A DNA stretch of 30,676 nucleotides from a virus, in IMG/VR virus record IMGVR_UViG_3300028383_000218, positions 1 through 30,676 of that record, one strand, 5' to 3'. Shown here one piece after another: positions 9,751-30,676 of the stretch; within the stretch, counting starts at the first letter, position 1; each line of letters opens with the position of its first letter. A program made the position numbers and the translations under genes. The notes beneath the pieces were generated by a model that did no database searches, was not told the origin of the DNA, and saw nothing but the letters and a program-made list of their open reading frames with translations.

Positions 9751-10193
9751 TGACATATTATGTAGGTAAGAGCGCTACAGATGTTCTAAACGGAATTTCA
9801 AGTCAATATCTATATGGACTACGAAGAAACGACGATGGTGAACTGTTTCTAATAAGAGTAGATCAGTTACAAGGCGGAGACGATAATTCAATAGTTATAA
9901 ACAATCAAGGAACACGTGATGCCAGCTTTCCTGATTTTGAAGAAGGCATAAGCTATTTCGAAGGCATAGACGAATCGCATGACATAGTTTATCCCAACCT
10001 TAGATATCCGCAACTTAAATGGGACAATCGAGCAATTAGCTATTACGTTGAACCAGAAACAGGACAATTTGTGCAGAGAGTAAACGAAGACTTTGAATAT
10101 CCGGAAAATATTTCTACGCCTGGTTATAACGAAGGCAAGGATAATCAAGTGCTAGACAATACAGAATACACAGACGCAGAGAGAAACTTATGA
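9750..10193 (+). CDS. Virion protein of unknown function (147 aa)
   Basis: A 147 aa acidic protein starting MTYYVGKSATDVLNGISS, with YLYGLRRNDDGELFLIRVDQ near residues 20-40 and a Tyr/Asp-rich middle (FEEGISYFEGIDESHDIVYP). It overlaps the previous stop by one base and the next start by four (ATGA), so all three genes are translationally coupled. This type of protein sits next to giant fibre genes in marine T4-like phages as far as I recall, but I cannot assign a role. An N-terminal anchor or linker for the 1829 aa protein is one possibility. Confidence 0.65.
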   Translation: MTYYVGKSATDVLNGISSQYLYGLRRNDDGELFLIRVDQLQGGDDNSIVINNQGTRDASFPDFEEGISYFEGIDESHDIVYPNLRYPQLKWDNRAISYYVEPETGQFVQRVNEDFEYPENISTPGYNEGKDNQVLDNTEYTDAERNL

Positions 10194-13100: not shown

Positions 13101-15679
13101 AAATTCCCGAAGACTACATAGGTTTAAGAATTATTATTATTGCAGGTCCGGCTGCAGGACAGTACGGAATAATTGATGCTTATAATCCACCTACTAAGGA
13201 AGCTGCAATTATAAAAGAATCAACAGGGGACCCTGGATGGGATCATATCGTATCTGGAACACCTATCTTAAACACTATAGAATCCACAAACCGTTACAGA
13301 ATTGAGCCTTTAATTTCTGTAGAAGAACCTGAATTTTTACAAAGCTTTTCTAATTTACCATTAGACAGAACCTACATAGATACTGCATTTGATTATATCA
13401 CCCAATTCTTTGAGAATATAGATATAGGTGACGGTACTCTAGAAGACGATGCTGTTCCAAAAAATCCAGCAGTTTTTGACATAGTTCAAAGAGGCGAAGA
13501 GTATGAAGTTACTTTAGTTGACGGAGGATCTGGATATAATGTAGGAGATTCATTTACCATAAGCGGAGATCGAGTAGGGGGCATTTCTCCTGAAAACGAT
13601 CTTTATATTGACGTTACAGAAGTTAGTGCTGATAGCACTAACAGTGTGATTAATTTTTCCAGTGAAGGAAAAGCTCGCGGCAAACGCTTTGTTTCTATAG
13701 CCAATCCTAATTTTGCAATTTATAGCGATAACGGAGAAGACTTTTTAGAAAATAATTTGCCTTTTGCAGGAAATTATGTTTCAATAGCTTCAGGGAACAA
13801 CAGATTTGTAGCCGTGGCGTCATCTGAAAGCAGGGCTGCTTTTAGCTATAACGGAATAGACTGGAGCGAAGTCAATCTTCCTTTAGATTTAAATTGGAGC
13901 AGCGTATCATACGGAACCGGGGTATTTGTTATTGTTGCAGATGATTCAGATACGGTTCTTTATAGTTCTAACGGCGAACAATGGCAGTCAACAGAAATTC
14001 CACCAGATACGGTAGGAGATTCTACAGTATCTTCTTATAGTTTTGTAGAATTCGGCAAAGGGAAATTTGTAGCTCTGTCTAGCAACGACAGAGCAACAGC
14101 AACATCAACTGATGGCATAAATTGGTCACGCAACGATCTTGCATTGCCGAATGTAAATTCTACATCTATATACGATTTTGCAGGATTTACATATGGCGAC
14201 AATAAATTTGTAGCGTTATCTAAAGAAGGATTCTGCATTTATAGTTTTGACGGAGTTACATGGTACGAAGGAACCATTGCACCAAATACAAGTCTAGTAG
14301 AATATGTAGATATCAAATACTATCAAGGTATATTCCTAGCAGCAGGCAAGCCTAGTACCGGTACACCTACAAGCGAACTTTTTGCAACAACTTATGATTG
14401 TTTGACTTGGGAATCTAGAACGGGCAACTTTTCTCAGGAATGGACAACTATAGGGTTTAGTAATTTAAACAATAGGCCAGAATTTTACTTATTTGCCGAT
14501 AGTACTCGTACTAACGGGTTAGCTAAAATTAATGCTGGTAAGCCTGCAAAACTAAGACCCGAGTTAAACCAAGGTGCTATAAGCGATATCAAAATTTGGG
14601 ATCCAGGTAGCGGATATGATCCAGATAATTTACCGGTAATCACGGTTTTTGATGACACTGCGCCTGTAGAAGCTTTTCTTGTGCCGAGAATAGGTAATGG
14701 TTCGCTATCCCAACCAGATTTTGTAAATAGAGGCAGTGGATATGTAACGACTAGTTCTACAGTAACTATATCAGGAAACGGATACGGTAATGTTGTACCG
14801 GTTGGTGATGTTCTTACTCTTTCAGGATTGCCAAAGGTTCCTGACGTAGGAGTGCAAATAATCATTGACGGCGTATTTGATAGCATAAATGAGGACCAGC
14901 TAGAATTATTTACTGCTGCAAGAGTGCGGGATCTAGGAGACGACGGGACTAGACAAGGCACTAAACTAATTGAATTTGACGTTAATCCTTCGCTAGACGC
15001 TATAGATCAAATTCAGCACGGAACTTCTGTTACCCTTAGAGAGAATTACAGCCAAGCTCGTGTAACAAATCACGATTATCTTGATATAGGCACAGGCAGT
15101 TTTGAACAAACTAATTATCCGGATATATATGCAGGAGGTAATTTTTTCAGAGCCTCGCCTGAAAACGAAGTATTCGAAAGAAACGGTGGTAGAGTATTTT
15201 ATGTTTCCACAGACCAAGATGGTAACTTTAGAGGCGGCGAATTATTTGCAGTTAACCAAGCAACGGGTGTGATTACTATTTCAGCTGAATTCTTTGACTT
15301 GCAAGGGCTTTCTGAATTAGCGCTAGGAGGAATAAGATTAGGTGGATCAGGCACAGTGGTTAGAGAATTTTCTACCGACCCTAACTTTACTGCTGACTCT
15401 GACAATATTATTCCAACACAAAAAGCTATTGCAGAATTTTTGCAAATACGTCTTAGTGTAGGCGGCGAAAATCTTGAAACAAACCTACTAACTGCTGGTA
15501 GAATACAGCTAGGCGGACCTGAAAACAATGCATTTAATTTGACAGGCAGGCCCATAGAAGTAAGAAGTCCTGTAATAATTAATGGGCTAGATCGTTCAGG
15601 ATCTCCTACCAGTATTTCAGGAACAATTATCTCGCAACAGTTGTTTTTACGAGAAACAACTGAGAATATGCAGCAGTGA
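10190..15679 (+). CDS. Giant fibre protein: CBM-like repeats, beta-helix, propeller (1829 aa)
   Basis: Parts in order: seven repeats of about 45-60 residues (residues 9-392) of the form W-x5-Y-x-x-D/G-x-V-x-x-x-G-x-x-Y-x-C-x3-H ... W, resembling CBM5/12 chitin-binding modules; a beta-helix opening DTIFVSTQGFDERNDG (about 452) with GTYEEIGPIIVPAG; a helical stretch (about 590-720); the core GAYVALDPGWGP to NGNNSYGRFG (about 741-855); six Asp-box-like repeats such as YNGIDW, STDGINW and FDGVTW (about 1163-1424), probably a beta-propeller; and a C-terminal segment GGRVFYVSTDQDGNFRGG (about 1665). The 2456 aa neighbour has the same order. The ATG overlaps the stop of the previous gene by four bases. 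Likely a long host-recognition fibre; carbohydrate binding is inferred from the repeat pattern, and no catalytic site is visible. Confidence 0.8.
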   Translation: MTEFAIERFTYTWKGEWEPEGNYKRDDVVFLNGKSYVCIETHTASTIFSDDLNAVIPDSDPPQLKPKWVLMTSGLLFRGDWETETEYNIYELVYYKGTVYKCINNHVSTEFYNDESNWSFFARHIEYIGDWEPETPYSYGAVVKYNGIIYECVAPHLSSNSLKDDINNWKVFYNGIEYRGAWEPSSTYRKNDLVKFGGSIYRCTEEHTSVSTGSAVGFDKNKFEIEIPGFQYESVWNSSTEYQVGDVVKYGGVLYYANTSNINIDPTQPEGNDTWSFFSDSYNFRGKWSVSESYKTGDIVQRGGQVFLAKQDINIDEIDSSNQDYLDPDWWELLIPGSVFQKSWQEDVTYSVGDVVYYRGSAYRCNFEHVSATDNFPGDNGNIYDYWDLFIQGSPAGLQAKGDLLTFGLTRDEIGDDSSLGLTNVSIGNENDVLSVSSSLEAFWRTVEFDSDTIFVSTQGFDERNDGINRGLTATAPFRTIRFACEYIEDNFEAGTLVTVRVATGTYEEIGPIIVPAGCAIVGDELRSTTVSVNPPNPNLEGDFERIVSALGYLQSIILNIVSNQEIEPTPGNNSEQLLNTTTTDINGVNNILNQLEVFLDQARFRLGLRNNPVEISGSNDLSTDQAKIDAGTALFENRIFIANELAAYIEQTFDFFDRDRYVNDFEAVARGIRRDFIFSGNYGTILSANRYANQITGSQTDDLFRMRDTTGLRSCTLRGLKGDLIEPVNDRIYPDITGGAYVALDPGWGPADERTWINNRSPYIQGVTTIGDKCYGKHINGSLHNGGNRSMVSNDFTQVLSDGVGILAENNARTELVSVFTYYCAVGYLADTGGKIRATNGNNSYGRFGTVANGIDPNETPLQATVNTRNNEAQVIDGFAGSVNNEILAFEYGITGNNYSQAAADIEGAGDFAEVEFSDFRDGAMFDVEILPFQDSGSIGGSGYTTRQGFAQETVNAEERIIISRADVNQIPEDYIGLRIIIIAGPAAGQYGIIDAYNPPTKEAAIIKESTGDPGWDHIVSGTPILNTIESTNRYRIEPLISVEEPEFLQSFSNLPLDRTYIDTAFDYITQFFENIDIGDGTLEDDAVPKNPAVFDIVQRGEEYEVTLVDGGSGYNVGDSFTISGDRVGGISPENDLYIDVTEVSADSTNSVINFSSEGKARGKRFVSIANPNFAIYSDNGEDFLENNLPFAGNYVSIASGNNRFVAVASSESRAAFSYNGIDWSEVNLPLDLNWSSVSYGTGVFVIVADDSDTVLYSSNGEQWQSTEIPPDTVGDSTVSSYSFVEFGKGKFVALSSNDRATATSTDGINWSRNDLALPNVNSTSIYDFAGFTYGDNKFVALSKEGFCIYSFDGVTWYEGTIAPNTSLVEYVDIKYYQGIFLAAGKPSTGTPTSELFATTYDCLTWESRTGNFSQEWTTIGFSNLNNRPEFYLFADSTRTNGLAKINAGKPAKLRPELNQGAISDIKIWDPGSGYDPDNLPVITVFDDTAPVEAFLVPRIGNGSLSQPDFVNRGSGYVTTSSTVTISGNGYGNVVPVGDVLTLSGLPKVPDVGVQIIIDGVFDSINEDQLELFTAARVRDLGDDGTRQGTKLIEFDVNPSLDAIDQIQHGTSVTLRENYSQARVTNHDYLDIGTGSFEQTNYPDIYAGGNFFRASPENEVFERNGGRVFYVSTDQDGNFRGGELFAVNQATGVITISAEFFDLQGLSELALGGIRLGGSGTVVREFSTDPNFTADSDNIIPTQKAIAEFLQIRLSVGGENLETNLLTAGRIQLGGPENNAFNLTGRPIEVRSPVIINGLDRSGSPTSISGTIISQQLFLRETTENMQQ
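10214..11365 (+). repeat. Seven CBM5/12-like repeats in the 1829 aa protein
   Basis: Seven diverged coding repeats, each opening with an aromatic strand and W (WKGEWEPEGNY, FRGDWETETEY, YIGDWEPETPY, YRGAWEPSSTY, YESVWNSSTEY, FRGKWSVSESY, FQKSWQEDVTY). Repeats 1-4 and 7 carry C-x3-H (CIETH, CINNH, CVAPH, CTEEH, CNFEH); repeats 5 and 6 have A in place of C. DNA identity between units is low, so the array is old. Confidence 0.85.
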
Positions 15680-15708: not shown

Positions 15709-18700
15709 ATGGCTGAATTTAAATTAGGAAGAATAAGATTTGTCTGGAAGGGTGAATGGAATTCCGGTAACGAATACTACAAAGATGATGTGGTAAGTTT
15801 CAATGGTAAAAGTTTTATCTGTGTTATAGGCCACACCAGTGCAGAAGATTTTTCCGACGATTTCAATATTACTCCTTCTAAATGGAATCTTGTAGCCGAA
15901 GGACAGTCGTGGAGAGGAGGCTGGCAGCCTAACACTGAATACTTTGTAGATAACATAGTCAAATGGGGGGCACGTCTATACATCTGTGATACACCTCATA
16001 CTTCAAGCACAGTTACAGGCTCTCAAACATTTACGGTTACTGTAGAAACCAACACAGAAAGTCCAGGCAATAATGTTTTTGCAATCGATGGTGTACAATA
16101 TCCTGATTTACAATTTATTCGAGGATACACCTATACTTTCAACCAAGATGATTCCAGTAACACTGCTCACCCGTTATTGTTTAGTACTCAGAAAAACGGA
16201 ACTCATAGCGGCGGAACAGCATTTGAAACCGGAGTGTCATATTTTCTAGACGGAGTAGAAGTTGCAGACGGCGACGCCTATAATGCAGGATTTAACACAG
16301 CTACACAGAGACGCGTGGAAATTGCAGTATCTGCCGATACACCCGATCCACTTTATTACTACTGTTACAACCACAGTAACATGGCTGTGAATGCAGAAAT
16401 TGATGTTACTAGCTATGGGCTTACATCAGATATATCAAAATGGAAAATTTTTGCTGAAGGCCTAGAATGGAAAGGCGAGTGGCAAACTGAATTCGATTAT
16501 AAAATTAATGACTTTGTAAAATACGGCGGTAGTTCTTATGTTTGTATCTCTGATCATGTTTCTTCCTCAACTTCTGCCCTTGGATTAGAGTCCGACATAG
16601 ATAAATGGGAAACATTTAACAATGGATTTGATTTTCAAAATAGCTGGCAATCCAATTATAGGTATAAACTAAACGATGTTGTTAGAAGAGGCGGAAAACT
16701 TTGGATATGCGTTGTTCATCACACTTCTTCTAGCGAATTTGCTTCAGATTCCAGTAACTGGCAGCCATTCGTAGAAGGGTTTGAATTCGAATCAGAGTGG
16801 GATGCTTATAAAAACTATCAGATAGGCGATATTGTTGTTTATGGCGGAAACCAATATATTGCACGCGCTGACAACATAGGAGAGTTTCCTACTACCTCAA
16901 ATTCTTGGGAGGTATTCAGTGAAGGCTTGAAATTTGTTGGAGACTGGAATGAAGATTCGTCACAGGTAGAATATAGAGTAGGTAATGTAGTTCGCCTAGG
17001 AGGATTTACCTATCGCTGCATCAAAGATCATACCAATCAACAACCGCCAAATGAAGAATTTTGGATTAGATTAAATTCAGGATTCGAATGGAGATCGGAG
17101 TGGGCAGCCGGTGCGGAATACTATCAAGGCGACGTTGTTCGTTTCGGCGATAATTCTTACGTAGCAAATACCTATCATATTGCAGACGACGGAGTTAATT
17201 CTCCAGATCTTCAAGATAGTTCTGCCTTCTGGAGTGTTATTTCCATTGGATCTGAGCAAAGTGTGTTAACTACAGAAGGCGATTTGCTTTACTTTGCAGG
17301 TTCAGTTCCTGCTAGATTGCCTATAGGCGATAACGGCCAAATACTCACAGTTTCACCGGAAGGTATACCAGAATGGGAATTCTTAGGAGCATCGGAAGAT
17401 GTTTACTATGTAGCAGAACACGGTGAAAACGAGCCTGCTCCTATATATGGAAAAAGCATTGATAGACCTTGGAAATCAATAAGATATGCCTGCGAACAAA
17501 TCGAGTACGGAACAAAGAACCCTCAAGCCAGGATGCTGTTAGAAAACAACAGGGTCTTTATACAAAAAGAAACAATTGAATGGGCAGAATATCAATCGGA
17601 AAATAATCTTTCTCCATTCACAGATACATTTACATTTGATTCTGCAAAGTGGGAACGAGAAATAGGATTCATACTTGATTCTATAGTATGGGATATTAGC
17701 CACGGAGGCAATGTACGATCAAGAGATATAGCTTTAAAATATATTAATGACTCTAACGAAATATTTACACCAGATGAACAAGAAGAGTTTGTTGCTGCTG
17801 TCAATTATTCCCTAACATTAATAAGCGATATTTTAGATCAAACAGACCCTGAAGAAAATTATCAAATTCTGCGAGGAGATAATTCTACAAGAATAGCAGA
17901 ACAATACACAAACATGTCTCTTACTGCAGAAGACAGTGCATTTAATGATGTTTCTGATAGAGTTGCTATAATCACCACAGCAATTTCCGAACAAGATGAA
18001 AACAGTCTGCCCAAAAGAAATGAATTACATACTCTAGTAAAAGTTTCTACAGGAAAATATTTTGAAACTTGTCCTATTATTGTACCGGCGCTTTGCTGTG
18101 TTCTAGGTGACGAATTAAGATCAACTAGAATAGAAGCTAGGAACACTACTAATTCAAATCTAGTTGCTAGAGAAGATTTTATATACAAAGCTAGTATCTT
18201 TAACAGATTAGAAAACGTAATTTCCGATATAGTAGACGGACAAACTGTATCAGCATCGAGCGGTAACACACAGACACAGTATCAAGAGTGGCCTTTTGCA
18301 GAAACTGCTAATGTTTCGCCTGCAATAGAAAGACTTGTAAGAAGTGTAAGAAGACATGCAGACTTTAAATTAGGTTCTAAAGAAGAAATAACTTTGAAAC
18401 CTCATTATGATATGTCATCTCCCTTATTAGGAAGAGGACGTGACTTACTTCAACTTAACAAGGAATTTTTAAAAGCAGAAGTTGTTGCGTACATCGGTAA
18501 CGATTACAGTTTTCGTTATTCTCGCACTAAGGCAAAAGAGGATACAAGCTATATAATAGATGCTGTTTCATATGATTTAACATATGAGGGGAATTGGCAA
18601 AGTGTCATTGCGGGCGAGGCTTACTATGATGGAACAAATCTTGGCATAGGAAATGAAGACAAACAAGCCCTTATTGATACATACAATTTTCTAAACAACC

Positions 18701-21700
18701 TTGCAAGAGACGTAGCTACTGACACAGAAGTTACTGCCTTACAAGATAATGTTGAGCAGATTAGAGGTATCGGCGGCGATACAAATGTTGCTACAAGAAT
18801 AGATAGTCTGCTTACGGACATAGTAGATATTGTTGACAACGGCACAGGAACAGTTGCAACTGTTTATCCAACAATAAACACAACTGAAGGCCAAGCAGTT
18901 GTCGATGATATTGATACAGCAAAGTCTCAAATTGAAGACGATTCGATTACATTTATCAACACAAACTTTCCTAATTTAGAATACGATCAAGCAAAATGCG
19001 AGCGAGACATCGGACTTATTCTAGAAGCTGTGTCTTATGATGCAGCATTAGATACTAATTTTGCAACTTGCATAGCCGCATATGCATATCTTCGTCAATC
19101 AGGTGAAAAAGTTCTCAAAGAACAAAAAGAAGCTTCAATTGCTAACTTTGAATTTGTTAAACAGAGAACCTTGCAAGAGATTCCTCTTGATCCTGATTAT
19201 ACTTTTGCAAGAGACAGTATAGATGATTCTTTCGAATTTATCGCTGACATTGTGTATACAGGTGAAGCAGAAGGCTCTAATAATCAGGTAGAAGACCAAG
19301 AAATCTATCATGCAATACATCAGATTAGACTGAACAAGGATTTTATAACAAAAGAAGCTTATTCTTATTTTGAAGACTACTACACAAGAGACATTGTTGA
19401 AATAGATACTAACGCAAATGTAGTTGTAATAGATTCTACCGAGCCACTTGAACTATACACAGAAGTAGTAATGACTAATAATCTTGAAACTGCAGACGAA
19501 CAAGATAGATATTTTGTATACGATATAGTAAGCGACACCGAATTTAAAATTACAGATTCAATCGGAGGTTCAGAAGTCAGTGTAGTTAATGTTTCTGACG
19601 CTATCGTAGTACAAGCATCTTATGAAATAGAAGAAACTGAATTGAATCGATACGTAGAAGATTTACTAGACGATATTATTTGGGATCTTACATATCCTAG
19701 TAAATGGCAAAGAGATTATACCGGAACAGCAGGCGTAAGCGACTTTACTCTATGGATACCAGGCAGTTATAAACACAGGCTAAATGCTCGTTATTATAGC
19801 AATGAGATAATAGGTTCTCAAGAGGAGGACATGTACTATGTTAGAAATGCAACCGGTCTAAGATTACAAACTGTAGGCGGATTGTTAGGCGACTTAGGGC
19901 CAACAAATCAATACGGAACAAGACGACCGACTGCAGGTGCGTATGCGAGTCTTGATCCAGGTTGGGGACCAAACGATGAAAGAGTTTGGATTACCCAAAG
20001 ATCTCCCTACGTTCAAAACGTGTCTACTTTTGGTAGAGGTGCTATAGGTCAAAAAATTGACGGTGAACTACACGCCGGCGGGAATGATTCTATAGTTTCT
20101 AATGACTTTACCCAGTTAATATCAGACGGAATCGGGGCTTGGATTACAAATAATGGAAGAGCAGAGCTTGTATCTGTGTTTACCTACTATGCACACATAG
20201 GCTATCTAGCCGAAGAAGGTGGAAGAGTTCGTGCTACAAACGGCAATAATTCATATGGCACATTTGGTTCTGTAGCAGAAGGTGTAGACCCAGAAGAAAC
20301 TCCAATTACAGCAGTCATAGATAATAGAGGACAATTCCAAGCAACCGTTTCTAACGTATACACAGACGGAGAACAACTGCTCTCCTTAGAATACGAAAAT
20401 GCCGGTATCAATTATACCGAAGCAGAAATCGATATATTCGGTGCAGGTTCTGACGCAGATATTGTTGTAGATGAATTTAGAGATGATTCTGTATTCCAAG
20501 TCATTATTGACGAAGACGAAGATACACCTGCAGGCGGGGAAGGCTACACTCTGCAATCTAACACAGCTCAGTCTGGCTCAACAACGGGAATATTTCTTGC
20601 AGCAACAGACGGTAGGTTGAGTTCAGCATATATAGGGATGGCAATATATATAATAGGCGGCCGGGCACGGGGCCAGTATGCATATATCGACACCTATAAT
20701 GCGGGCACCAAAGAAGCCACTGTGGTAAAAGAGGACGGTACTGCTGGTTGGGAGCATATAGTACCAGGCACAGAGATTGTTAATCCTAACTCTACATCTA
20801 CCTATCAAATTGAACCGAGAGTTGAAATAGAATCTCCTACTGCCAATATTTCAAACGGAAACACTTTAGATTCTGCAGTCGATTTAGCTGCAATAGATTA
20901 TTTTGAAACCTCCGAAGAGTATTTTGATATTTCCGCATCAGGAGGAACCGGCAGCGGAGTAAGTTTCGATGTTATAAGAATAGGATCGAAATATTATGTA
21001 ACACTAAACAGTGCAGGGTCCGGATATCAGAGGCTAGAAACTCTAACAATACTAGGATCAGAACTAGGAGGAGCAGATAGTACAAATGATATTACCATAA
21101 GGCCGATCAGTCTAGACGAAGACGGTGCTATAATAGAATTTGATTTTTCAGGCTACGGCGAAAAAGGTCTCTTTGTCGGAGTCAGTTCAGACCCATCGGC
21201 TACTGCTCATACAAGCATTGACGGTAAAACATGGACTACTGAAAACATGTCTACGTCAGATCCCTGGTCAGATATTGCAAGCGGTCTAATCGACGACGGC
21301 TCTTCTATTTTCCAGACCAGCATAATTGCAGCTATATCTACAAATGGCACTGTTAATTATTCTATAAACGGAATTGATTGGTTTGATCGTTCAACAGGCT
21401 TATCATCTTCAGGTGTTAAAAAGATTGCATTTGGAAAAATCGCTGTAGATAATAATAGATTTGTAACAATCAGTGACAACTCAACAGATGTTGCATATTC
21501 TGTTAACGATGCTGAAAATTGGAACATAGTTCCAAACGGATTGCCGGCTACTGGCTATAGTTGTATTACATATGGCAAGGGTCTATTTGTAGCTGCACGA
21601 TCCGGTGCAGCAGAAGTGTCTTATTCTACGGACGGAGAAACTTGGACAACAACTACAGATGTAGCGATATCCGCTAATTGGGTAGATATCAAGTGGGGTA

Positions 21701-23079
21701 ATGGTAGATTTATCCTTATAGCAGCAGACGGTACCATATTGTATAGCTTAGATGGCGAAACCTGGCTGGATACTGAATCTACAGGATTAACAACTCCTTT
21801 GGGTCAACTAGCTTATGGACAAGGTGTTTTTGTTATTACTAGTACTGCAGACAATTCTGCAATTTATCATTCTGAATTTGGCTTAGAATGGAGTTCTTTA
21901 ACTGTAGGCACAACTACTGCATCAGGTTACAACGCAATTGCTCATGGTAATCCTGATAGAACAACCAGTTTTGTTGCATCTTCGGCTGGAATAGAAGACA
22001 CTATAGCTTATACTAATATTGGTGCTAGAGCTAGAGCGCGAGCAGGAGTTTCTAATGATCAGATATTTGAACTTAGACTTTTAGAGCCAGGGTCGTATTA
22101 TCAGTCTTCTCCTACAATAACGGTTACCGATCCAAACAACATCACAGATGTTTTATTACAGCCAAGACTAGGTAACGGATCTCTTGCTAATCCTTCATAC
22201 CTCAACAGAGGACAGGGATATTCTGAAGCGTCAGCAGAATTAAATGAACAGACCTCAAATGGTGAAGCAGACTTTAGACAAAGTGTTGATCAAATAGCTG
22301 TAAAGTGGATTACAGAACGTCCTGTAGATGGTTCAAACGTTGAGTTTGATAGTCTACCAGGCAAGTTCTTTAAATTGGTTAACACTTTAAGTTTTGTGGG
22401 CGAAGCAGATGGTTCATACACTGCTTTCTTGCAAATATCACCTGGGCTAACGATTACTGAGGCGCCGCCTCATGAAGATCCAATGACACTGCGTATTAGA
22501 TATTCACAGGTAAGACTAACAGGGCACGATTTCCTTGATATAGGAACAGGAAGCCAGGAAGAGACAAATTATCCTAGCAGAGTTTTCGGAGAACCAGAAA
22601 ACCTACCAGATCAAAGTCTAGAAACCACCGAGTCAGATGGCGGCAGAGTGTTCTTTACTTCCACAGACCAAGATGGTAACTTCCGAGTAGGTAACTTATT
22701 CTCAGTTGAACAGTCGACTGGTGTTGCAACAATTAGCGCAGATGCGTTTAACCTAGCAGGACTTCAAGAACTCTCGTTGGGAGAGGTTACACTTGGCGGG
22801 AATTCTGCTACTGTTAATGAGTTTTCAACTGATCCGTTCTTTACTGCAGATTCTGATAATATAGTGCCCACTCAGAGAGCGGTCAAGTCCTACATTGAAG
22901 CACAGATCGGCGGCGGCGGAGCCTCGATTAATGTAAATAGTGTTACAGCAGGAGATATTTTTGTAGGATCAAATCAAATTTCTTCTGTGACAGGCGAGCC
23001 GATAAATATTACTGGACCAATTAGATTCCAGAAAGCAGTGCTAGGACTTCCAATAGCATTTCAATACTTTTTAAGATAA
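15709..23079 (+). CDS. Giant fibre protein: CBM-like repeats with inserted cupredoxin-like domain, beta-helix, propeller (2456 aa)
   Basis: The largest gene here, a paralogue of the 1829 aa protein. Seven W/Y repeats (residues 9-514); repeat 2 is split after HTSSTVTG by a cupredoxin-like domain (about 105-232) carrying H154, C219, H222 and M225. A beta-helix opens at DVYYVAEHGENE (about 564). It is interrupted by long alpha-helical stretches with four diverged units of the type KWEREIGFILDSIVWD (about 645, 938, 1092, 1309). Next come GAYASLDPGWGP to NGNNSYGTFG (1411-1514), six Asp-box-like repeats (about 1821-2094; IDGKTW, INGIDW, TDGETW, LDGETW), and GGRVFFTSTDQDGNFRVG (about 2310). GCGGAG ahead of the ATG supports the start. 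It is about 630 residues longer than its paralogue, largely because of the cupredoxin and helical inserts. Probably a host-recognition fibre. Confidence 0.8.
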   Translation: MAEFKLGRIRFVWKGEWNSGNEYYKDDVVSFNGKSFICVIGHTSAEDFSDDFNITPSKWNLVAEGQSWRGGWQPNTEYFVDNIVKWGARLYICDTPHTSSTVTGSQTFTVTVETNTESPGNNVFAIDGVQYPDLQFIRGYTYTFNQDDSSNTAHPLLFSTQKNGTHSGGTAFETGVSYFLDGVEVADGDAYNAGFNTATQRRVEIAVSADTPDPLYYYCYNHSNMAVNAEIDVTSYGLTSDISKWKIFAEGLEWKGEWQTEFDYKINDFVKYGGSSYVCISDHVSSSTSALGLESDIDKWETFNNGFDFQNSWQSNYRYKLNDVVRRGGKLWICVVHHTSSSEFASDSSNWQPFVEGFEFESEWDAYKNYQIGDIVVYGGNQYIARADNIGEFPTTSNSWEVFSEGLKFVGDWNEDSSQVEYRVGNVVRLGGFTYRCIKDHTNQQPPNEEFWIRLNSGFEWRSEWAAGAEYYQGDVVRFGDNSYVANTYHIADDGVNSPDLQDSSAFWSVISIGSEQSVLTTEGDLLYFAGSVPARLPIGDNGQILTVSPEGIPEWEFLGASEDVYYVAEHGENEPAPIYGKSIDRPWKSIRYACEQIEYGTKNPQARMLLENNRVFIQKETIEWAEYQSENNLSPFTDTFTFDSAKWEREIGFILDSIVWDISHGGNVRSRDIALKYINDSNEIFTPDEQEEFVAAVNYSLTLISDILDQTDPEENYQILRGDNSTRIAEQYTNMSLTAEDSAFNDVSDRVAIITTAISEQDENSLPKRNELHTLVKVSTGKYFETCPIIVPALCCVLGDELRSTRIEARNTTNSNLVAREDFIYKASIFNRLENVISDIVDGQTVSASSGNTQTQYQEWPFAETANVSPAIERLVRSVRRHADFKLGSKEEITLKPHYDMSSPLLGRGRDLLQLNKEFLKAEVVAYIGNDYSFRYSRTKAKEDTSYIIDAVSYDLTYEGNWQSVIAGEAYYDGTNLGIGNEDKQALIDTYNFLNNLARDVATDTEVTALQDNVEQIRGIGGDTNVATRIDSLLTDIVDIVDNGTGTVATVYPTINTTEGQAVVDDIDTAKSQIEDDSITFINTNFPNLEYDQAKCERDIGLILEAVSYDAALDTNFATCIAAYAYLRQSGEKVLKEQKEASIANFEFVKQRTLQEIPLDPDYTFARDSIDDSFEFIADIVYTGEAEGSNNQVEDQEIYHAIHQIRLNKDFITKEAYSYFEDYYTRDIVEIDTNANVVVIDSTEPLELYTEVVMTNNLETADEQDRYFVYDIVSDTEFKITDSIGGSEVSVVNVSDAIVVQASYEIEETELNRYVEDLLDDIIWDLTYPSKWQRDYTGTAGVSDFTLWIPGSYKHRLNARYYSNEIIGSQEEDMYYVRNATGLRLQTVGGLLGDLGPTNQYGTRRPTAGAYASLDPGWGPNDERVWITQRSPYVQNVSTFGRGAIGQKIDGELHAGGNDSIVSNDFTQLISDGIGAWITNNGRAELVSVFTYYAHIGYLAEEGGRVRATNGNNSYGTFGSVAEGVDPEETPITAVIDNRGQFQATVSNVYTDGEQLLSLEYENAGINYTEAEIDIFGAGSDADIVVDEFRDDSVFQVIIDEDEDTPAGGEGYTLQSNTAQSGSTTGIFLAATDGRLSSAYIGMAIYIIGGRARGQYAYIDTYNAGTKEATVVKEDGTAGWEHIVPGTEIVNPNSTSTYQIEPRVEIESPTANISNGNTLDSAVDLAAIDYFETSEEYFDISASGGTGSGVSFDVIRIGSKYYVTLNSAGSGYQRLETLTILGSELGGADSTNDITIRPISLDEDGAIIEFDFSGYGEKGLFVGVSSDPSATAHTSIDGKTWTTENMSTSDPWSDIASGLIDDGSSIFQTSIIAAISTNGTVNYSINGIDWFDRSTGLSSSGVKKIAFGKIAVDNNRFVTISDNSTDVAYSVNDAENWNIVPNGLPATGYSCITYGKGLFVAARSGAAEVSYSTDGETWTTTTDVAISANWVDIKWGNGRFILIAADGTILYSLDGETWLDTESTGLTTPLGQLAYGQGVFVITSTADNSAIYHSEFGLEWSSLTVGTTTASGYNAIAHGNPDRTTSFVASSAGIEDTIAYTNIGARARARAGVSNDQIFELRLLEPGSYYQSSPTITVTDPNNITDVLLQPRLGNGSLANPSYLNRGQGYSEASAELNEQTSNGEADFRQSVDQIAVKWITERPVDGSNVEFDSLPGKFFKLVNTLSFVGEADGSYTAFLQISPGLTITEAPPHEDPMTLRIRYSQVRLTGHDFLDIGTGSQEETNYPSRVFGEPENLPDQSLETTESDGGRVFFTSTDQDGNFRVGNLFSVEQSTGVATISADAFNLAGLQELSLGEVTLGGNSATVNEFSTDPFFTADSDNIVPTQRAVKSYIEAQIGGGGASINVNSVTAGDIFVGSNQISSVTGEPINITGPIRFQKAVLGLPIAFQYFLR
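15733..17250 (+). repeat. Seven CBM5/12-like repeats in the 2456 aa protein, repeat 2 split by an insert
   Basis: Units open with FVWKGEW, SWRGGWQ, EWKGEWQ, DFQNSWQ, EFESEWD, KFVGDWN and EWRSEWA. C-x3-H is kept in units 1-4 and 6 (CVIGH, CDTPH, CISDH, CVVHH, CIKDH); units 5 and 7 have A instead of C. Unit 2 is interrupted between HTSSTVTG and SDISKWKIF by about 130 residues of cupredoxin-like sequence. Confidence 0.85.
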
Positions 23080-25184: not shown

Positions 25185-25700
25185 GTGGCTACACAGAAAT
25201 ATTACGCTCAATTTAACAAGTATAACAAGTTGTTTATAACAATACTACAATGGTTGCCTGAGGAGTACTATCGCCTTCTCAATCATGATCAGTATCTGTA
25301 TAAGGAAGTTGAACTCGACGAAGAAACAGAAACTATAAAAGGTGATTATGACGATTTTAGGGTAGTCAAGATTGCTGATCAACCTCTGCCTGTTTACGAA
25401 CGAACACTAAACGACTTAGCGCGCCAAAAAATTGAAAAACAGTTTTCGATGCCAAAGCAGTTGTCTATAATTTGTGAACAGCTTACAAAATTGTCAGAAA
25501 GTGAAGGAATTGATGCATCAGATGTTAAAGAAATGCTTTCCTACATAAACGAAGTTAAAAAAGAAAATAGATTGCGAAAAGAATTTTATGCAGAAGATCC
25601 AGACTACGACTACTGGACTGAAGAAGAGGAAGACGAATATCAAGCAAAGCAAGAGGACGGCGGCATAATAGAATACGATGAAAGACTTAGAAGTTTATAA
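25185..25700 (+). CDS. Acidic protein of unknown function (171 aa), possibly a fibre assembly factor
   Basis: A 171 aa protein. The start is GTG, chosen because GGAGGA lies just upstream at the end of copy C and no better in-frame start is near. The N-terminal half is mixed alpha/beta (YYAQFNKYNKLFITILQWLP). The middle is predicted helical (LARQKIEKQFSMPKQLSIIC, then VKEMLSYINEVKKENRLRKE). The C-terminus is strongly acidic (DYDYWTEEEEDEYQ). No cysteine pairs, membrane segments or enzyme motifs are visible. A helical, acidic, soluble protein after fibre genes would suit a folding or assembly chaperone, but I do not recognise the family. It overlaps the next gene by 23 bases. Confidence 0.6.
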   Translation: MATQKYYAQFNKYNKLFITILQWLPEEYYRLLNHDQYLYKEVELDEETETIKGDYDDFRVVKIADQPLPVYERTLNDLARQKIEKQFSMPKQLSIICEQLTKLSESEGIDASDVKEMLSYINEVKKENRLRKEFYAEDPDYDYWTEEEEDEYQAKQEDGGIIEYDERLRSL

Positions 25701-26154
25701 GACCATTAAAGAGCAAACAGTTGACGAAATTAAAAAACAGTTGGCTGACCTAGACGACAGCGTTTGGATAAGAAGAGAATCTCTTGGACGCGGCCGAGGA
25801 GTAATTTCTGGAACAGATTGCTCTTATGATTTTTTAAGCGAACAAGATATGCCTAAGTTGCTATTATCTACCTTAAAGGATAATGCACCGGAATGTTCTT
25901 ATAATTTAGATGAAGTGTGTGTAAATAGATACCAGAAGGGTGACTATTTAGGACCGCATAAAGATATGGATATGTCTATCAAAAATATAGTCGTCTCTTT
26001 GGACAACAGCAATAATGGATTATTAAATAATGAAACAGACGAATTTATCGCGGACAAGAAAGGGCAAGCAGTTTGCTTTACAGGTGTAGGACCGATTCAC
26101 TCGGTTCCACCGGTAAAGGATTTAAGGTATGTGCTCATATATCTTTATAATTAG
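25678..26154 (+). CDS. 2-oxoglutarate/Fe(II)-dependent oxygenase, prolyl-hydroxylase-like (158 aa)
   Basis: A 158 aa protein with the facial triad of the 2OG-Fe(II) oxygenase superfamily: H94-x-D96 in YLGPHKDMDM and H141 in GPIHSVPPV, followed by R150 (9 residues later), the usual position of the 2-oxoglutarate carboxylate ligand. Spacing and small size fit the single double-stranded beta-helix core of phage and bacterial family members. Such enzymes use O2 and 2-oxoglutarate to hydroxylate a protein, nucleic acid base or small molecule; the substrate cannot be read from sequence. The N-terminus NRYQKGDYLGPH is typical of the prolyl-4-hydroxylase and AlkB-like groups. It overlaps the upstream gene by 23 bases and has only a weak ribosome binding site, so translation is probably coupled. 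Placement among fibre genes hints at virion protein modification. Confidence 0.82.
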   Translation: MKDLEVYKTIKEQTVDEIKKQLADLDDSVWIRRESLGRGRGVISGTDCSYDFLSEQDMPKLLLSTLKDNAPECSYNLDEVCVNRYQKGDYLGPHKDMDMSIKNIVVSLDNSNNGLLNNETDEFIADKKGQAVCFTGVGPIHSVPPVKDLRYVLIYLYN

Positions 26155-26162
26155 GAAAAATA

Positions 26163-26633
26163 ATGTATAAAAAATTACCAACACTAACTAGTTCAAGCAT
26201 AAAACAGTTTGAAAATTTATATAGTTCCGTGGAAATGAAAGATTTTCCTGTAAGACTAGGAGTTCATGGAGCAAGTAAACCTAGTTATTATTTCTCCTCA
26301 AAATGGTACGATTGGAAGCATGATCAAAGAGAAGGCTTTAAATCTGCATTTCCTGAGCCGTATGCCGATTATGCAGTTTCTGGTTACTTTATTAATTTTC
26401 CTGCAGAGATAGGTAGGTTAGATCTACAAGATTATTGGGTAGGATCTAGAATGGCAGGCAATATGATTTCATACAGCCTTACAGATAATATAATTTACAT
26501 TAATGACGAAGGTATTTCTGTCAAGAAAGGAGAAGGCATTACTTTCAATCTTAGAGAATATCACGAAGTAAAAGCAACATCCGCACATGATCAAAAATGG
26601 GCATGTTTAATGACTATGAAATCATTTATATAA
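26163..26633 (+). CDS. Cupin / double-stranded beta-helix protein, possibly Asp/Asn hydroxylase-like (156 aa)
   Basis: A 156 aa protein 8 bases after the oxygenase gene, with an AGGA ribosome binding site. The C-terminal third (GISVKKGEGITFNLREYHEV, then KATSAHDQKWACLM) resembles the final strands of the aspartyl/asparaginyl beta-hydroxylase family, in which W-x-x-G-x-x-x-x-F-x-x-x-x-x-H-E-V carries the second iron-binding His. Here that His would be about residue 135. I cannot find a convincing first H-x-D motif, and the Arg usually found after HEV is replaced, so enzymatic activity is doubtful. It may be a degenerate or non-catalytic cupin. It converges with the Nudix gene and overlaps it by 12 bases. 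Confidence 0.55.
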   Translation: MYKKLPTLTSSSIKQFENLYSSVEMKDFPVRLGVHGASKPSYYFSSKWYDWKHDQREGFKSAFPEPYADYAVSGYFINFPAEIGRLDLQDYWVGSRMAGNMISYSLTDNIIYINDEGISVKKGEGITFNLREYHEVKATSAHDQKWACLMTMKSFI

Positions 26634-26638
26634 TGATT
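26620..26638. repeat. 7-bp inverted repeat at the convergent gene ends
   Basis: AATCATT (26620-26626) and AATGATT (26632-26638) flank TATAT and cover the stop codons of both convergent genes. It could form a weak AT-rich hairpin in either transcript. No immediate T-run follows, so a terminator role is uncertain. Confidence 0.4.
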
Positions 26639-27053
26639 GAACATCTAAAACCGTTGCAATTTTTGTTTGATTAGGTTTTTTAGTCAATGTGTTTTTCAAT
26701 CCATAGTGCAACGGACGTGGCCATTTGTCGCAGGAAACCCATGCATATCCGTCGTGTTCTTGATTTAACAAAGGCATAAATTCTTTCCTTATTATACAGA
26801 GATAAGTATGAAATGTAAAGGAATTGTCTCTAGATTGAAATTTTTCAAGAGGCACAGTTTTCAATATGTCAACAGAACCTATTTCTTCCCAAATTTCTCT
26901 CTTTAGGCCTTCCCAGGGAGTTTCTTGATTTTCCGTGTTACCTCCAACAATCCCCCATACATTTGATCTCTTCCCCTGAGTTCGATGAACAAAAAGAAAT
27001 CTTTCAGTGTCAAGACTGAAGAAAAGAGCACCTGCACATACAAGGTTTGACAT
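26622..27053 (-). CDS. Nudix hydrolase (143 aa)
   Basis: A 143 aa protein with a complete Nudix box, G-x5-E-x7-R-E-x-x-E-E-x-G, at residues 38-60 (G38, E44, R52, E53, E56, E57, G59). The N-terminal VCAGALFFS and VHRT strands and the WGIVGG approach fit the usual alpha/beta/alpha fold. Family members hydrolyse nucleoside diphosphates linked to another group (oxidised dNTPs, ADP-ribose, NADH, dinucleoside polyphosphates, RNA caps); the substrate cannot be predicted here. The start at 27053 has an AAAGG ribosome binding site. The gene is encoded opposite to the surrounding fibre genes, shares a 74-base divergent gap with the 710 aa gene, and its 3' end overlaps the cupin-like gene by 12 bases. 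This suggests separate, possibly earlier expression, or later insertion. Confidence 0.92.
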   Translation of the reverse strand: MSNLVCAGALFFSLDTERFLFVHRTQGKRSNVWGIVGGNTENQETPWEGLKREIWEEIGSVDILKTVPLEKFQSRDNSFTFHTYLCIIRKEFMPLLNQEHDGYAWVSCDKWPRPLHYGLKNTLTKKPNQTKIATVLDVQSLYK

Positions 27054-27101
27054 ACCTTTACTTATATCTCAAAATGCTACATATAATTCAAAGTGAAGCT
27101 T

Positions 27102-27109
27102 GATAAATA
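27102..27109 (+). promoter_or_regulatory. Late promoter-like box GATAAATA
   Basis: TGATAAATA occurs in the divergent gap between the Nudix gene and the 710 aa fibre gene, 18 bases before the ATG at 27128, with GAGGA at 27117-27121 as ribosome binding site. The spacing to the start matches that of the perfect box at 2690. Confidence 0.6.
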
Positions 27110-27127
27110 TCATAACGAGGACATAAA

Positions 27128-29260
27128 ATGAGCAACTTTTTTGGTAGAATAAGAATTATTCCTAGACAATCAAGCTTCCTAGATAGAATATCAGGATCAA
27201 GCGGGCAGATTTACACAAACAAAGATTCTGGTAGTATTCGGGTATACAACGGTGACGATCCAGGAGGAAAAGAACTTGCAACTTCGGATTTTAAAAACAT
27301 AGAAAGCACTGCAGAACTTGACCTACTAAGTAAAAAGAATCGAATTCGTTTTCATTGGGACACACTTAATGACCTTGAAACAGAAGTAGATCCTGTTGTT
27401 TATCACGGCATGATTGCTCATGTTCACTCTGAAGGCAGACTGTATTTTGCACATGCAGGTGAATGGACACCGGTTGCTAATCTTTCTGAAGCCGGCAATA
27501 TTCCCTACACTGCGGATGCGGAAAACGAGTTGCAGTGGGTCGAAGGTACCTGGGACTTTGGAAACAATATAATAAAATATGCCAACGCAATTCAATTAGA
27601 AGCTGATCTTGCAAATTACGATGCTGGCGTTTATCACGGCATGACCATGCATGTTCACGAAACCGGTGCTCTCTACTATGCACACGCAGGAGAGTGGCGA
27701 AAACTGTTAACAGATGTTCAACATTCAGATGTTGAAGGAGCAGGGTATGCTAATCCTCTAGGCGCAACAGCCTATTCAAACGATTTTGCAGATTTGGATA
27801 ATGCTCCCGCAAGTATATTAGATTTGGGAATCACAGACGGTTCATCTGGTCAGGTGTTATCCACAGACGGTGCAGGCACATTCTCATTTGTAGATGCTGC
27901 TGCAGGCACAGGCAGTTCGTTCAATCTTATAGAATCAGACGACGGTTCTTTCAATGCTGATGATGTATCCAATCTAAGAATACTAGGCGGCGAGAATATA
28001 TCAACGGAAGTAGTAACAGATTCAGATGAATTGACTATTAACCTTGATTCTTTTTCTATTAACTTTTTGACAGACGTAGATACCGAATCCAATCCTCCAG
28101 CCACAGGTGAAGTACTGAAATGGGACGGCGCAAAATGGGCACCAGGAATTGACGTTGCAGAAGGCGGATCTGGACTAGACGCAGATACCCTAGACGGTCA
28201 GGACGGTTCCTACTATCTTGATTACAATAATTTTACCAACACGCCCAGCGTAGTAACTCTTGAAGATCTTTCTATTGGCAACGAACTCACAGCAGCAGGC
28301 AACGGTGCTATATCATACGACAACACAACAGGCGTGTTTCGTTTTACACCACCTACAGCAGCAGGCATTGGAGCTCTAACTTCTGTAGCGTTCTCTGATC
28401 TTACGTCAACTCCTACCACAATAGCCGGCTATGGAATAACTGATGCGTTTTCAGGTTCGTTTGGAGATCTCTCAAACACACCTACCACTATTGCAGGATA
28501 CGGTATCACTGACGCATTCTCGGGCGATTATAACGATCTTTCAAACACTCCTGCGATACCGTCAACTATATTAGATCTTGGTATATCAGATGGCACAGAC
28601 GGGCAAGTGTTGACCACAGACGGTGCAGGCAATTTTTCTTTCGCAAGTGTGACGCAAACCAGCGGTGGAGACCCAGACCAGAATCTGTTTGCTACCATAA
28701 ACGCAGATTCAGGATCTACCACAGCAGATACCACCACTGACAGTCTTACTGTTGCAGGTGGCACGGATATATCTACCTCAATATCTGGAGACACTGTGAC
28801 AGTCAGCTTCACAGGGTCAACATCAAGTGGCGCTTCTAACTTTGACGAACTCACAGACGTCGGTTCTGCAGGCATAGACGTCAATGACATATTCGAAGCC
28901 GCAATTGTTACTCTGAGAGTGAACAACAACAGTTCAATTGCCTACACATTTGATTCACACTACTCAGGAGATAATCCCACAATTTATGCTCTATCTGGAA
29001 CAACAATTGCGTTTGACCTAGATCAAGTGGGAGGTCATCCTTTTGAAATACAGGATTCAGGTGGCACAGCAATATCCCAAGGATTGGTTCATGTCAGTGC
29101 AACAGGTTCTGTATCAACTGGCTCTAGTGCTCAGGGATTTGATTCTGGAACACTGTATTGGAGAATACAAGAGTCAATCTCGGGTAATTACCAATATCAG
29201 TGTCAGTTTCACGCTGGTATGAATGGCACAATTACTGTAAAAAGACTAAGCGCAATCTAG
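27128..29260 (+). CDS. Fibre protein with HxH repeats and C-terminal cupredoxin-like domain (710 aa)
   Basis: A 710 aa structural protein. The N-terminal part (about 1-210) contains two similar units 77 residues apart, each YHGM-x-x-HVH ... A-H-A-G-E-W (H93, H98, H100, H109; H170, H175, H177, H186). A fibre shaft follows, with ILDLGITDG..GQVLSTDGAG at about 230 and again at about 480, and a tandem 23-residue repeat TPTTIAGYGITDAFSG (about 422-476). The last 115 residues form a cupredoxin-like domain with H637 (GGHPFEI) and C692-Q-F-H695-A-G-M698, the full set of type 1 copper ligands in amicyanin spacing. It is read from its own late promoter-like box and ends by overlapping the convergent minus-strand gene by four bases. 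Probably a receptor-binding or tail-surface fibre; metal binding is an inference from motifs. Confidence 0.8.
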   Translation: MSNFFGRIRIIPRQSSFLDRISGSSGQIYTNKDSGSIRVYNGDDPGGKELATSDFKNIESTAELDLLSKKNRIRFHWDTLNDLETEVDPVVYHGMIAHVHSEGRLYFAHAGEWTPVANLSEAGNIPYTADAENELQWVEGTWDFGNNIIKYANAIQLEADLANYDAGVYHGMTMHVHETGALYYAHAGEWRKLLTDVQHSDVEGAGYANPLGATAYSNDFADLDNAPASILDLGITDGSSGQVLSTDGAGTFSFVDAAAGTGSSFNLIESDDGSFNADDVSNLRILGGENISTEVVTDSDELTINLDSFSINFLTDVDTESNPPATGEVLKWDGAKWAPGIDVAEGGSGLDADTLDGQDGSYYLDYNNFTNTPSVVTLEDLSIGNELTAAGNGAISYDNTTGVFRFTPPTAAGIGALTSVAFSDLTSTPTTIAGYGITDAFSGSFGDLSNTPTTIAGYGITDAFSGDYNDLSNTPAIPSTILDLGISDGTDGQVLTTDGAGNFSFASVTQTSGGDPDQNLFATINADSGSTTADTTTDSLTVAGGTDISTSISGDTVTVSFTGSTSSGASNFDELTDVGSAGIDVNDIFEAAIVTLRVNNNSSIAYTFDSHYSGDNPTIYALSGTTIAFDLDQVGGHPFEIQDSGGTAISQGLVHVSATGSVSTGSSAQGFDSGTLYWRIQESISGNYQYQCQFHAGMNGTITVKRLSAI
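27401..27697 (+). repeat. Two HxH-containing coding repeats in the 710 aa protein
   Basis: Coding units at 27401-27469 and 27632-27700 encode YHGMIAHVHSEGRLYFAHAG.. and YHGMTMHVHETGALYYAHAG.., with four His conserved in register. The intervening sequence is not repeated at the DNA level. Confidence 0.8.
28391..28555 (+). repeat. Tandem 69-bp fibre shaft repeats
   Basis: Two complete 23-codon units (28391-28459 and 28460-28528) encode FxDLxxTPTTIAGYGITDAFSG, followed by the start of a third (YNDLSNTPA, to 28555). Such units are typical of phage fibre shafts and a likely site of copy-number change. Confidence 0.85.
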
Positions 29261-29272
29261 AATTCTATGCGC
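29250..29272. repeat. Inverted repeat over convergent stop codons
   Basis: The arms GCGCA (29250-29254) and TGCGC (29268-29272) enclose the palindrome TAGAATTCTA (29258-29267), centred on the overlapping stops of the 710 aa gene and the minus-strand gene. It may fold in both transcripts. There is no T-run, so a terminator role is only possible. Confidence 0.4.
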
Positions 29273-30666
29273 CACGCACCGTTTGGATATTCACCTTCGA
29301 AACTCAACAGCCACTCTGAATTTTCGAACTTGTACTGAATGCCTGTGTTTAGATTCGTGGTGTAGATTATTGTATTTTCATCATGCTGAGCTGCTTCAAA
29401 CACAACATGCCAACTAGAACCGTCCCATTCTATTATATCATTGCCCTTGGCAATAAAATCAGTACCGTCGTTGTTCTTCCATGCATCAGCTCCATCTGTA
29501 TTGACAGAATCGCCTATAGCCCCTAACAGCAATATCCTTGGATTTCCGCTTGCCTGTAGATTTTCTGGGTTGCTTTTTTTAGGATCAATAATGTAGTCTA
29601 TCTTGCTGCGAGATCCTGTAGGGCCTGTGAGCACAGTGTCTGTTGGAATTGAATCCACATCCCAGTTTACCACAGCTTCTGTGGGATCAGAAGGTGTAAT
29701 AGCAAAGGTACCTGCTATTTCTGAATCGAGATCAGATCGTTTTAGTCTTAGAAGAGAAATACCTTCTTCGAATTTGTAAGGCATCGCTTCTAGGAAGGTA
29801 TACCAATCTATAGCACCCACTACACCGTTTTTTGCAAGCTGAGCTGTGTTGTTTATGACTAACAGATCAATGTTCTGATAGGTGTTTTTAATAGTAATAT
29901 TCACTGCTTGATTGGTTTCATAATCTGCAGTGGCTTTTGCACGTTCTAGATCACCCTGCTCGTTGATAAAGATGCCTGTCTCTGTTTCTGCATCTCCTTC
30001 TGCAACTGACACATCAAGATCTCCCAGACTTTCTTTCATGTCTTCTTTGGAGTTGTGAATTCGAGAAATTATGTCTGTGATTACTCCTAGGCGCTTGACT
30101 TTTGCAGGTGGTGCTACCCAGATCGGAGTTGTAAATTCCATTGTGCTTACATCAATTTCAGATTCTGTTCCCGCCGGAATTGTTCGGCTACTCCACGTAA
30201 TTGAATTGAGATATACCGCAGTCAAGCTAGTCCAATCAAGGTAATTGTCTGTGGTCTGCAATTCCAGCGAAGGATTAAACAGCATGAGAATCTGTTCAAG
30301 TATCTGTAGTTTTTGATCTGTGTTTGTGCTCCAAATATCCACACTCACAGTAAGAGTGTAGGGAGTTGGCATGAGGCGTTCAACCGTGTAGTTTTTGCCT
30401 TCCGTGTTTAGATATTCATTACCCGCCTGATCAAATTCTCTTTCTCTGATATTTACTTTGTTTACATAGGAAGCGTCTGCCAGTCGTGAAGTGTCCAACT
30501 CAAGACTGGTAACATACAGAGCCATTCGAGGCGCTGTGGGAATTTTGTTTTCTGAATTGTCTCTTAAAATTGATCCTACCTGGCGTGTTAGGTCACCATA
30601 CATCACAGGCACAACATTGATATCCTGAGAGCTGTCTTTGTAGGAAAAACCACTCATCATTCTCAC
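29257..30666 (-). CDS. T4 gp15/gp3-like tail sheath stabiliser or related tail protein (469 aa), start uncertain
   Basis: The N-terminal two-fifths resembles the T4 gp15/gp3 tail completion family: MSGFSYKDSSQ then VMYGDLTRQVGSIL, and RLMPTPYTLTVSVDIWSTNT followed by QILEQILMLFNPSLEL. This parallels the N-P-x-P-(Y/I)-x-(I/M)-x-x-x-L-S-I ... QI(V/L)EQILPYF.P pattern as I recall it. Family members cap the contracted-tail sheath near the neck. At 469 aa it is clearly longer than T4 gp15 (about 270 aa); the extra C-terminal region has an acidic linker (about 215-245) and a beta-rich end with GNDIIEWDGSSWHVVFE. The listed start is a GTG at 30666; ATGs at 30660 and 30657 fit better because another frame has a TGA at 30665-30663 that could end the upstream gene. 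The frame stays open to the window edge, so the 5' end may lie outside. Confidence 0.62.
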   Translation of the reverse strand: MRMMSGFSYKDSSQDINVVPVMYGDLTRQVGSILRDNSENKIPTAPRMALYVTSLELDTSRLADASYVNKVNIREREFDQAGNEYLNTEGKNYTVERLMPTPYTLTVSVDIWSTNTDQKLQILEQILMLFNPSLELQTTDNYLDWTSLTAVYLNSITWSSRTIPAGTESEIDVSTMEFTTPIWVAPPAKVKRLGVITDIISRIHNSKEDMKESLGDLDVSVAEGDAETETGIFINEQGDLERAKATADYETNQAVNITIKNTYQNIDLLVINNTAQLAKNGVVGAIDWYTFLEAMPYKFEEGISLLRLKRSDLDSEIAGTFAITPSDPTEAVVNWDVDSIPTDTVLTGPTGSRSKIDYIIDPKKSNPENLQASGNPRILLLGAIGDSVNTDGADAWKNNDGTDFIAKGNDIIEWDGSSWHVVFEAAQHDENTIIYTTNLNTGIQYKFENSEWLLSFEGEYPNGAWRIEF

Positions 30667-30676
30667 CAGCTGAGTG

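Follow-up and report, generated by a model that had tools for sequence, protein, structure and literature searches.

A predicted cupredoxin domain with a conserved type 1 copper ligand set as a recurrent module of phage tail proteins

The window analysed here, a 30,676-nucleotide stretch of DNA from an uncultured phage of marine type (IMG/VR record IMGVR_UViG_3300028383_000218), encodes a gp9-type fibre protein whose last ~118 residues appear to carry an intact type 1 copper site, comprising His637 in a GHPF motif and then Cys692-x2-His695-x2-Met698 on the last loop. The explanation that we consider most likely, and on balance favour as a whole, is that the domain truly has the cupredoxin fold and an intact type 1 site under selection, and acts as a copper-loaded, metal-stabilised attachment module. 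What seems new, judging from the sequences, is the recurrence of such a domain as a module of phage tails. The relevant features of the fibre gene are as follows.

27128..29260, + strand: ORF of the 710-aa gp9-type fibre, or baseplate wedge tail fibre connector; residues 370-705 match phrog_677 (E 2e-51)
28892..29257, + strand: predicted C-terminal cupredoxin-fold domain, residues 589-710 (core ~589-706), from AlphaFold2 and Foldseek
29036..29038, + strand: His637, putative first type 1 copper ligand, in the GHPF motif; placed by position and invariant in alignment A2
29201..29203, + strand: Cys692, putative type 1 copper thiolate ligand; placed by position and invariant in A2
29210..29212, + strand: His695, putative second His ligand; placed by position and invariant in A2
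29219..29221, + strand: Met698, putative axial ligand; placed by position and invariant in A2, with Gln here in some relatives of a second copy of the domain (copy B, below)

Residues 627-641 of the fibre (IAFDLDQVGGHPFEI) hold H637, and residues 688-704 (YQYQCQFHAGMNGTITV) hold C692, H695 and M698, C692 being the sole cysteine of the protein. The earlier note had read these residues as a complete four-ligand set with the C-x2-H-x2-M spacing of amicyanin, and both the set, at these positions of the ORF, and the spacing are indeed present. Among 20,000 shuffles of the whole fibre protein none contained the pattern H-x(45-65)-C-x2-H-x2-M, and among 200,000 shuffles of the domain alone 13 did; a chance origin is excluded more strongly than by these shuffles because homologues keep the ligands. 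Across alignment A2, which holds 88 non-redundant homologues (near-duplicates removed) with 23% to 93% identity to the window domain, exactly five columns are invariant (H637, Y690, C692, H695 and M698), so that all four ligands withstand the comparison of homologues that had been proposed as a check. Going by the alignments, the ligand set is conserved far beyond the remainder of the domain, and we think it very probable that the site is maintained by selection for metal.

As some scans had been seeded with ligand-containing peptides, seeding bias was checked in three ways. Distinct domains in proteins that contain a ligand-free seed peptide retain the His, Cys, His and Met in 51 of 51 cases, and a viral scan whose seeds came solely from the sequence preceding the first ligand yielded 80 loci with 55 distinct domains, 54 of which have all four ligands (53 counted by script, plus L357, which has HPT in place of HPF). 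Both synonymous codons for His (CAT/CAC) and for Cys (TGT/TGC) are used across all complete domains. The set is kept in the phage records matched by tblastn (among them P-SSM2, P-SSM7, P-HM2, S-SSM7, S-RIM14, Syn9 and the podovirus P-GSP1), as well as in all main-class copies from 12 loci of cultured or single-cell phages. One exceptional lineage (L353, L355, L356 and L360) has exchanged the two His for Leu and Phe while Cys and Met stay and the domain is otherwise typical; hence, the site is not essential everywhere. These fibres constitute a natural loss-of-site control.

Comparisons with known structures place the domain almost certainly in the cupredoxin fold. Because a PDB search with the single domain sequence gave chance matches only, profiles were used instead, and nearly all PDB matches of the A1 (53 sequences) and A2 (88 sequences) profiles were cupredoxins, the A2 matches including CuNIR (1.6e-4), amicyanin (0.003), rusticyanin (0.02) and plastocyanin (0.04). 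The related profile A4 matched rusticyanin (1.3e-4) with all four ligands aligned, and, as a positive control, profile A3, built from phage domains, recovered the petE plastocyanin gene of P-SSM2 (E 1.3e-5). The structure prediction that the earlier note had likewise proposed agrees: an AlphaFold2 model on A2 has a mean pLDDT of 97 and a pTM of 0.90, and a Foldseek search of the PDB with it gave 62 matches at E<=0.001, the best 50 of which are all cupredoxin folds (laccase, CuNIR, rusticyanin, amicyanin, plastocyanin, pseudoazurin and CuA), with modest query-normalised TM-scores of 0.38-0.61. The predicted domain is a Greek-key beta-sandwich of the cupredoxin type, and the two His, the Cys and the axial Met/Gln that make up a type 1 copper site follow in it in their canonical order and strand setting. 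In the model the Cys ends strand 98-104, the penultimate long strand, and the His and Met lie in the loop before strand 111-117; the strand contexts previously suggested for the ligands are thus those of cupredoxins and blue copper proteins. We infer from the model that the four ligand side chains converge on one site.

The domain is present in about 260 phage records, nearly all of them cyanophages, mostly in proteins annotated as 'baseplate wedge tail fiber connector' and also in tail fibres, a subtilisin-like protease and unnamed proteins. Among 242 copies from fetched viral loci, 227 end at most 3 residues from the end of the ORF, and the domain alone matches phrog_677 ('baseplate wedge tail fiber protein connector') at E 1.4e-24. 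A cellular scan with profile A1 found nothing, and one with the sister profile A4 found 29 loci; marine Bacteroidetes encode a related domain, in some cases as ~150-aa lipoprotein-like proteins. A search of viral structure space also gave matches in giant viruses, one of them annotated as a blue type 1 copper protein. As the names of contigs hint at the sampled environments but are no proof of them, we assign no single lineage to a habitat. We found no paper describing a phage-tail domain of this kind in the open-access literature, outside which most subscription journals lie.

The window contains a second complete cupredoxin-like domain, copy B, in another fibre.

16060..16389, + strand: copy B, residues 118-227 of the 2456-aa fibre ORF 15709-23079; family HMM i-E 7.2e-19
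16168..16170, + strand: putative first His ligand of copy B, His154, in AHPLLF, from the sequence
16363..16383, + strand: C-x2-H-x2-M loop of copy B with Cys219, His222 and Met225, from the family HMM and the sequence

Most counterparts of copy B in related loci have a full set, in which the axial residue is Met or Gln, and one, L198, has lost it; ten counterpart rows marked by script as lacking the first His do show one by eye, in HPL, HPI or HAF. The location of copy B near the N-terminus of its fibre led us to reject a tip-specific copper site. The initial picture of an unusual site at the tip of a tail protein is not supported on either point: ligand sites are not confined to tips, and the site is widespread among cyanomyophages and uncultured phages related to them, where several structural proteins have it.

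The neighbourhood of the 710-aa fibre is also recurrent, being a unit of the fibre, a convergent gp15 gene (tail sheath stabiliser, PF16724) and a NUDIX gene.

26622-30675, - strand: NUDIX gene and gp15-like gene, flanking the fibre

Among 149 related loci, gp15 is present in 136 and NUDIX in 139. The gp15 of the window is nearest to those of the jumbo phages Phosso, Atu_ph07 and PA5oct (phages of Sinorhizobium, Agrobacterium and Pseudomonas), and the source phage is therefore not simply a cyanophage. Elsewhere on the + strand, the tandem ORFs 2716-5559 and 5692-9417 match phrog_13163, a baseplate wedge family, over their shared part, which suggests at the sequence level that the pair is a duplication. 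Two very large fibre ORFs in tandem, 10190-15679 (1829 aa) and 15709-23079 (2456 aa), both match phrog_9851, and a small ORF in the tail gene region (25678-26154) has weak similarity to 2OG-Fe(II) oxygenases.

Certain relatives keep the fold and have lost the site. T4-GC399, a cyanophage protein of ~1330 aa that adjoins gp9, has a domain with neither the HP motif nor C-x2-H-x2-M; its AlphaFold2 model (pLDDT 91) has AcoP, plastocyanin and rusticyanin high among its Foldseek matches, with other folds mixed in at weaker E-values, and we predict a cupredoxin-like fold from which the whole site has been lost. This domain is homologous to copy B of the window (phmmer down to 8e-19); as a profile-profile comparison of A2 with A5 was not significant, the homology rests on the copy B match and the fold. 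Decayed copies in phage ORFs of ~5000 aa on related contigs (L281, L282 and L284) have three or four ligands gone. A strict all-or-none loss of ligands was considered and dropped, as the His is still present in L284 and the Cys in L281, and as the loss in the L353 group is limited to the two His.

These observations bear on the first alternative, namely that the fold is reused without metal, the apo cupredoxin serving as a plain beta-sandwich module for adhesion or assembly in which packing or inheritance accounts for the retained Cys, His and Met. The ligand-free versions of the fold in the same virions, the loss of both His in the L353-type fibres and the little copper on offer during cytoplasmic folding would all fit this alternative. 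However, among sequences down to 23-40% identity the Cys, the two His and the Met outdo the hydrophobic core in conservation. In versions of the fold that do without the site, three or four ligands have usually been altered at once, and the axial place varies mainly by exchange of Met for Gln, which is likewise known as an axial ligand of type 1 sites. As the fold persists in virions without the site, the near-invariance of the ligands in the fibre class needs a cause other than folding; the argument that the earlier note had raised against simple fold reuse is thereby strengthened, and we regard metal-free reuse as unlikely.

Under the favoured explanation of a selected, metal-loaded site, the metal is likely to be copper, because the soft Cys and the axial Met or Gln of type 1 sites favour copper over zinc. 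The domain may be viewed as a mobile virion module, borne mostly at the C-terminus of gp9-type baseplate or fibre proteins of T4-related marine phages. The fibre protein would be made in the host cytoplasm with its cysteine free and reduced, and its copper might come either from the host as it dies or, after lysis, from seawater. A point against copper loading is that the cytoplasm, in which virion proteins fold, offers little free copper. Once bound, copper would tie together the last two strands and their loop, stabilising a presumably exposed domain, which could then serve in attachment or as a joint of the fibre. In blue copper proteins the usual Asn or Ser after the first His makes a hydrogen bond to the Cys thiolate; with Pro at this place in the fibre domain, that bond is absent or made differently, a further point against the favoured explanation. 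We see an even chance that the domain functions mainly in structure or adhesion and not in electron transfer, and predict that phages with this domain probably carry copper on their tails.

By analogy with proposals on iron, the displayed, copper-loaded domain could instead act as a Trojan horse, recognised as a receptor ligand by outer-membrane copper-binding or copper-uptake proteins of the host. The Ferrojan literature is a precedent for metal on tail fibres (PMC11705849), and the same fibre has two HxH motifs, a class proposed as iron-binding in tail fibres (PMC11705849).

27419..27427, + strand: H98-V-H100, candidate iron motif in the N-terminal half of the 710-aa fibre, from the sequence
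27650..27658, + strand: H175-V-H177 in the same fibre, from the sequence

Both HVH motifs lie in repeated GMxxHVHxxGxLYxAHAGEW segments. The C-terminal place of the domain on a fibre-type protein would also suit a receptor ligand; however, other copies are located close to the N-terminus of a different fibre or within giant structural proteins, and phages of different groups, including a podovirus, have the domain, making such a role improbable. Comparably improbable is a redox-active site whose copper would alternate between Cu(I) and Cu(II) at the cell surface for sensing or for passing on electrons, gating attachment or sheath contraction, for instance: the invariant axial Met (or Gln) is typical of electron-transfer type 1 sites and the closest relatives of known structure comprise electron-transfer proteins as well as copper enzymes, but no redox partner was recognised within the window.

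A more far-reaching proposal, which we hold to be doubtful, is that the tails of abundant marine T4-like phages include as standard, and under selection, a redox-capable type 1 site loaded with copper, which acts in host recognition or the triggering of infection, virions thus being copper carriers of the ocean. Cyanomyophages are among the most abundant marine viruses. If the tail site is as we propose, copper would join the metals suggested so far for tail fibres, a virion protein would become accessible to spectroscopy through a conserved site of the blue-copper type, and questions that can be tested would arise on copper in adsorption and in marine copper cycling, with the ligand-free sister domain in the same virions as a ready-made control.

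The fibre domain shares its predicted fold and the ligand order H...C-H-M with amicyanin, rusticyanin, plastocyanin and pseudoazurin; its C-x2-H-x2-M spacing is identical to that of amicyanin, and its GHPF resembles the first-His context of rusticyanin, GHSF. It differs from these blue copper proteins in lying inside a large virion protein made without a signal peptide, in having HPF rather than HN or HS at the first His, and in being about 120 aa long with longer middle loops. The label 'amicyanin-like' given to it earlier holds for the loop spacing but not for the first His, which is in a laccase-like HPF, nor for curated models: Pfam and NCBIfam searches gave cupredoxin matches below threshold only, PF00127 (plastocyanin/azurin; gathering score 21.2) being approached by the window domain at 16.6 bits and by the relative L243 at 20.9, and the amicyanin model TIGR02657 (cut-off 110 bits) having no match to the window domain at E<=1 and 24 bits for the best relative, L263. 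Amicyanin is moreover a secreted periplasmic partner of methylamine dehydrogenase, whereas the domain forms the C-terminal end of a structural ORF that lies among the tail genes of a phage; as neither the curated model nor the biological context matches, it should not be called an amicyanin. The best Foldseek match of the domain is the laccase of Thermus thermophilus, a multicopper oxidase whose type 1 domain invites comparison. The type 1 His motif of laccases is HPFHLHG, with a His-Pro-Phe context resembling that of the fibre, but the fibre domain is a single one without trinuclear copper ligands.

Closer relatives are the phrog_677 proteins (cyanophage gp9, T4-GC 398), in which the domain and about 330 fibre residues are homologous and all sampled members keep the four ligands; these are ~410 aa long as against 710 aa for the window fibre, and the gp15 of the window is closest to jumbo phages, not to cyanophages. 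The stand-alone cupredoxins of Bacteroidetes (L260, L263, L272 and L275) have the same domain with GHPF and YYxC-x2-H-x2-M, but are ~150-aa proteins with lipoprotein-type signal sequences, below the curated family thresholds, and not virion parts. The HxH motif of T4 gp37 is the metal site proposed on a phage tail fibre in the Ferrojan horse hypothesis (PMC11705849); there, HxH pairs of a trimeric fibre hold iron, whereas the fibre domain would have a putative type 1 copper site within one chain. Finally, the petE plastocyanins of cyanophages such as P-SSM2, which are found by the profile of the fibre domain, belong to the same superfamily but have C-x2-H-x4-M and are soluble photosynthetic electron carriers rather than virion domains.
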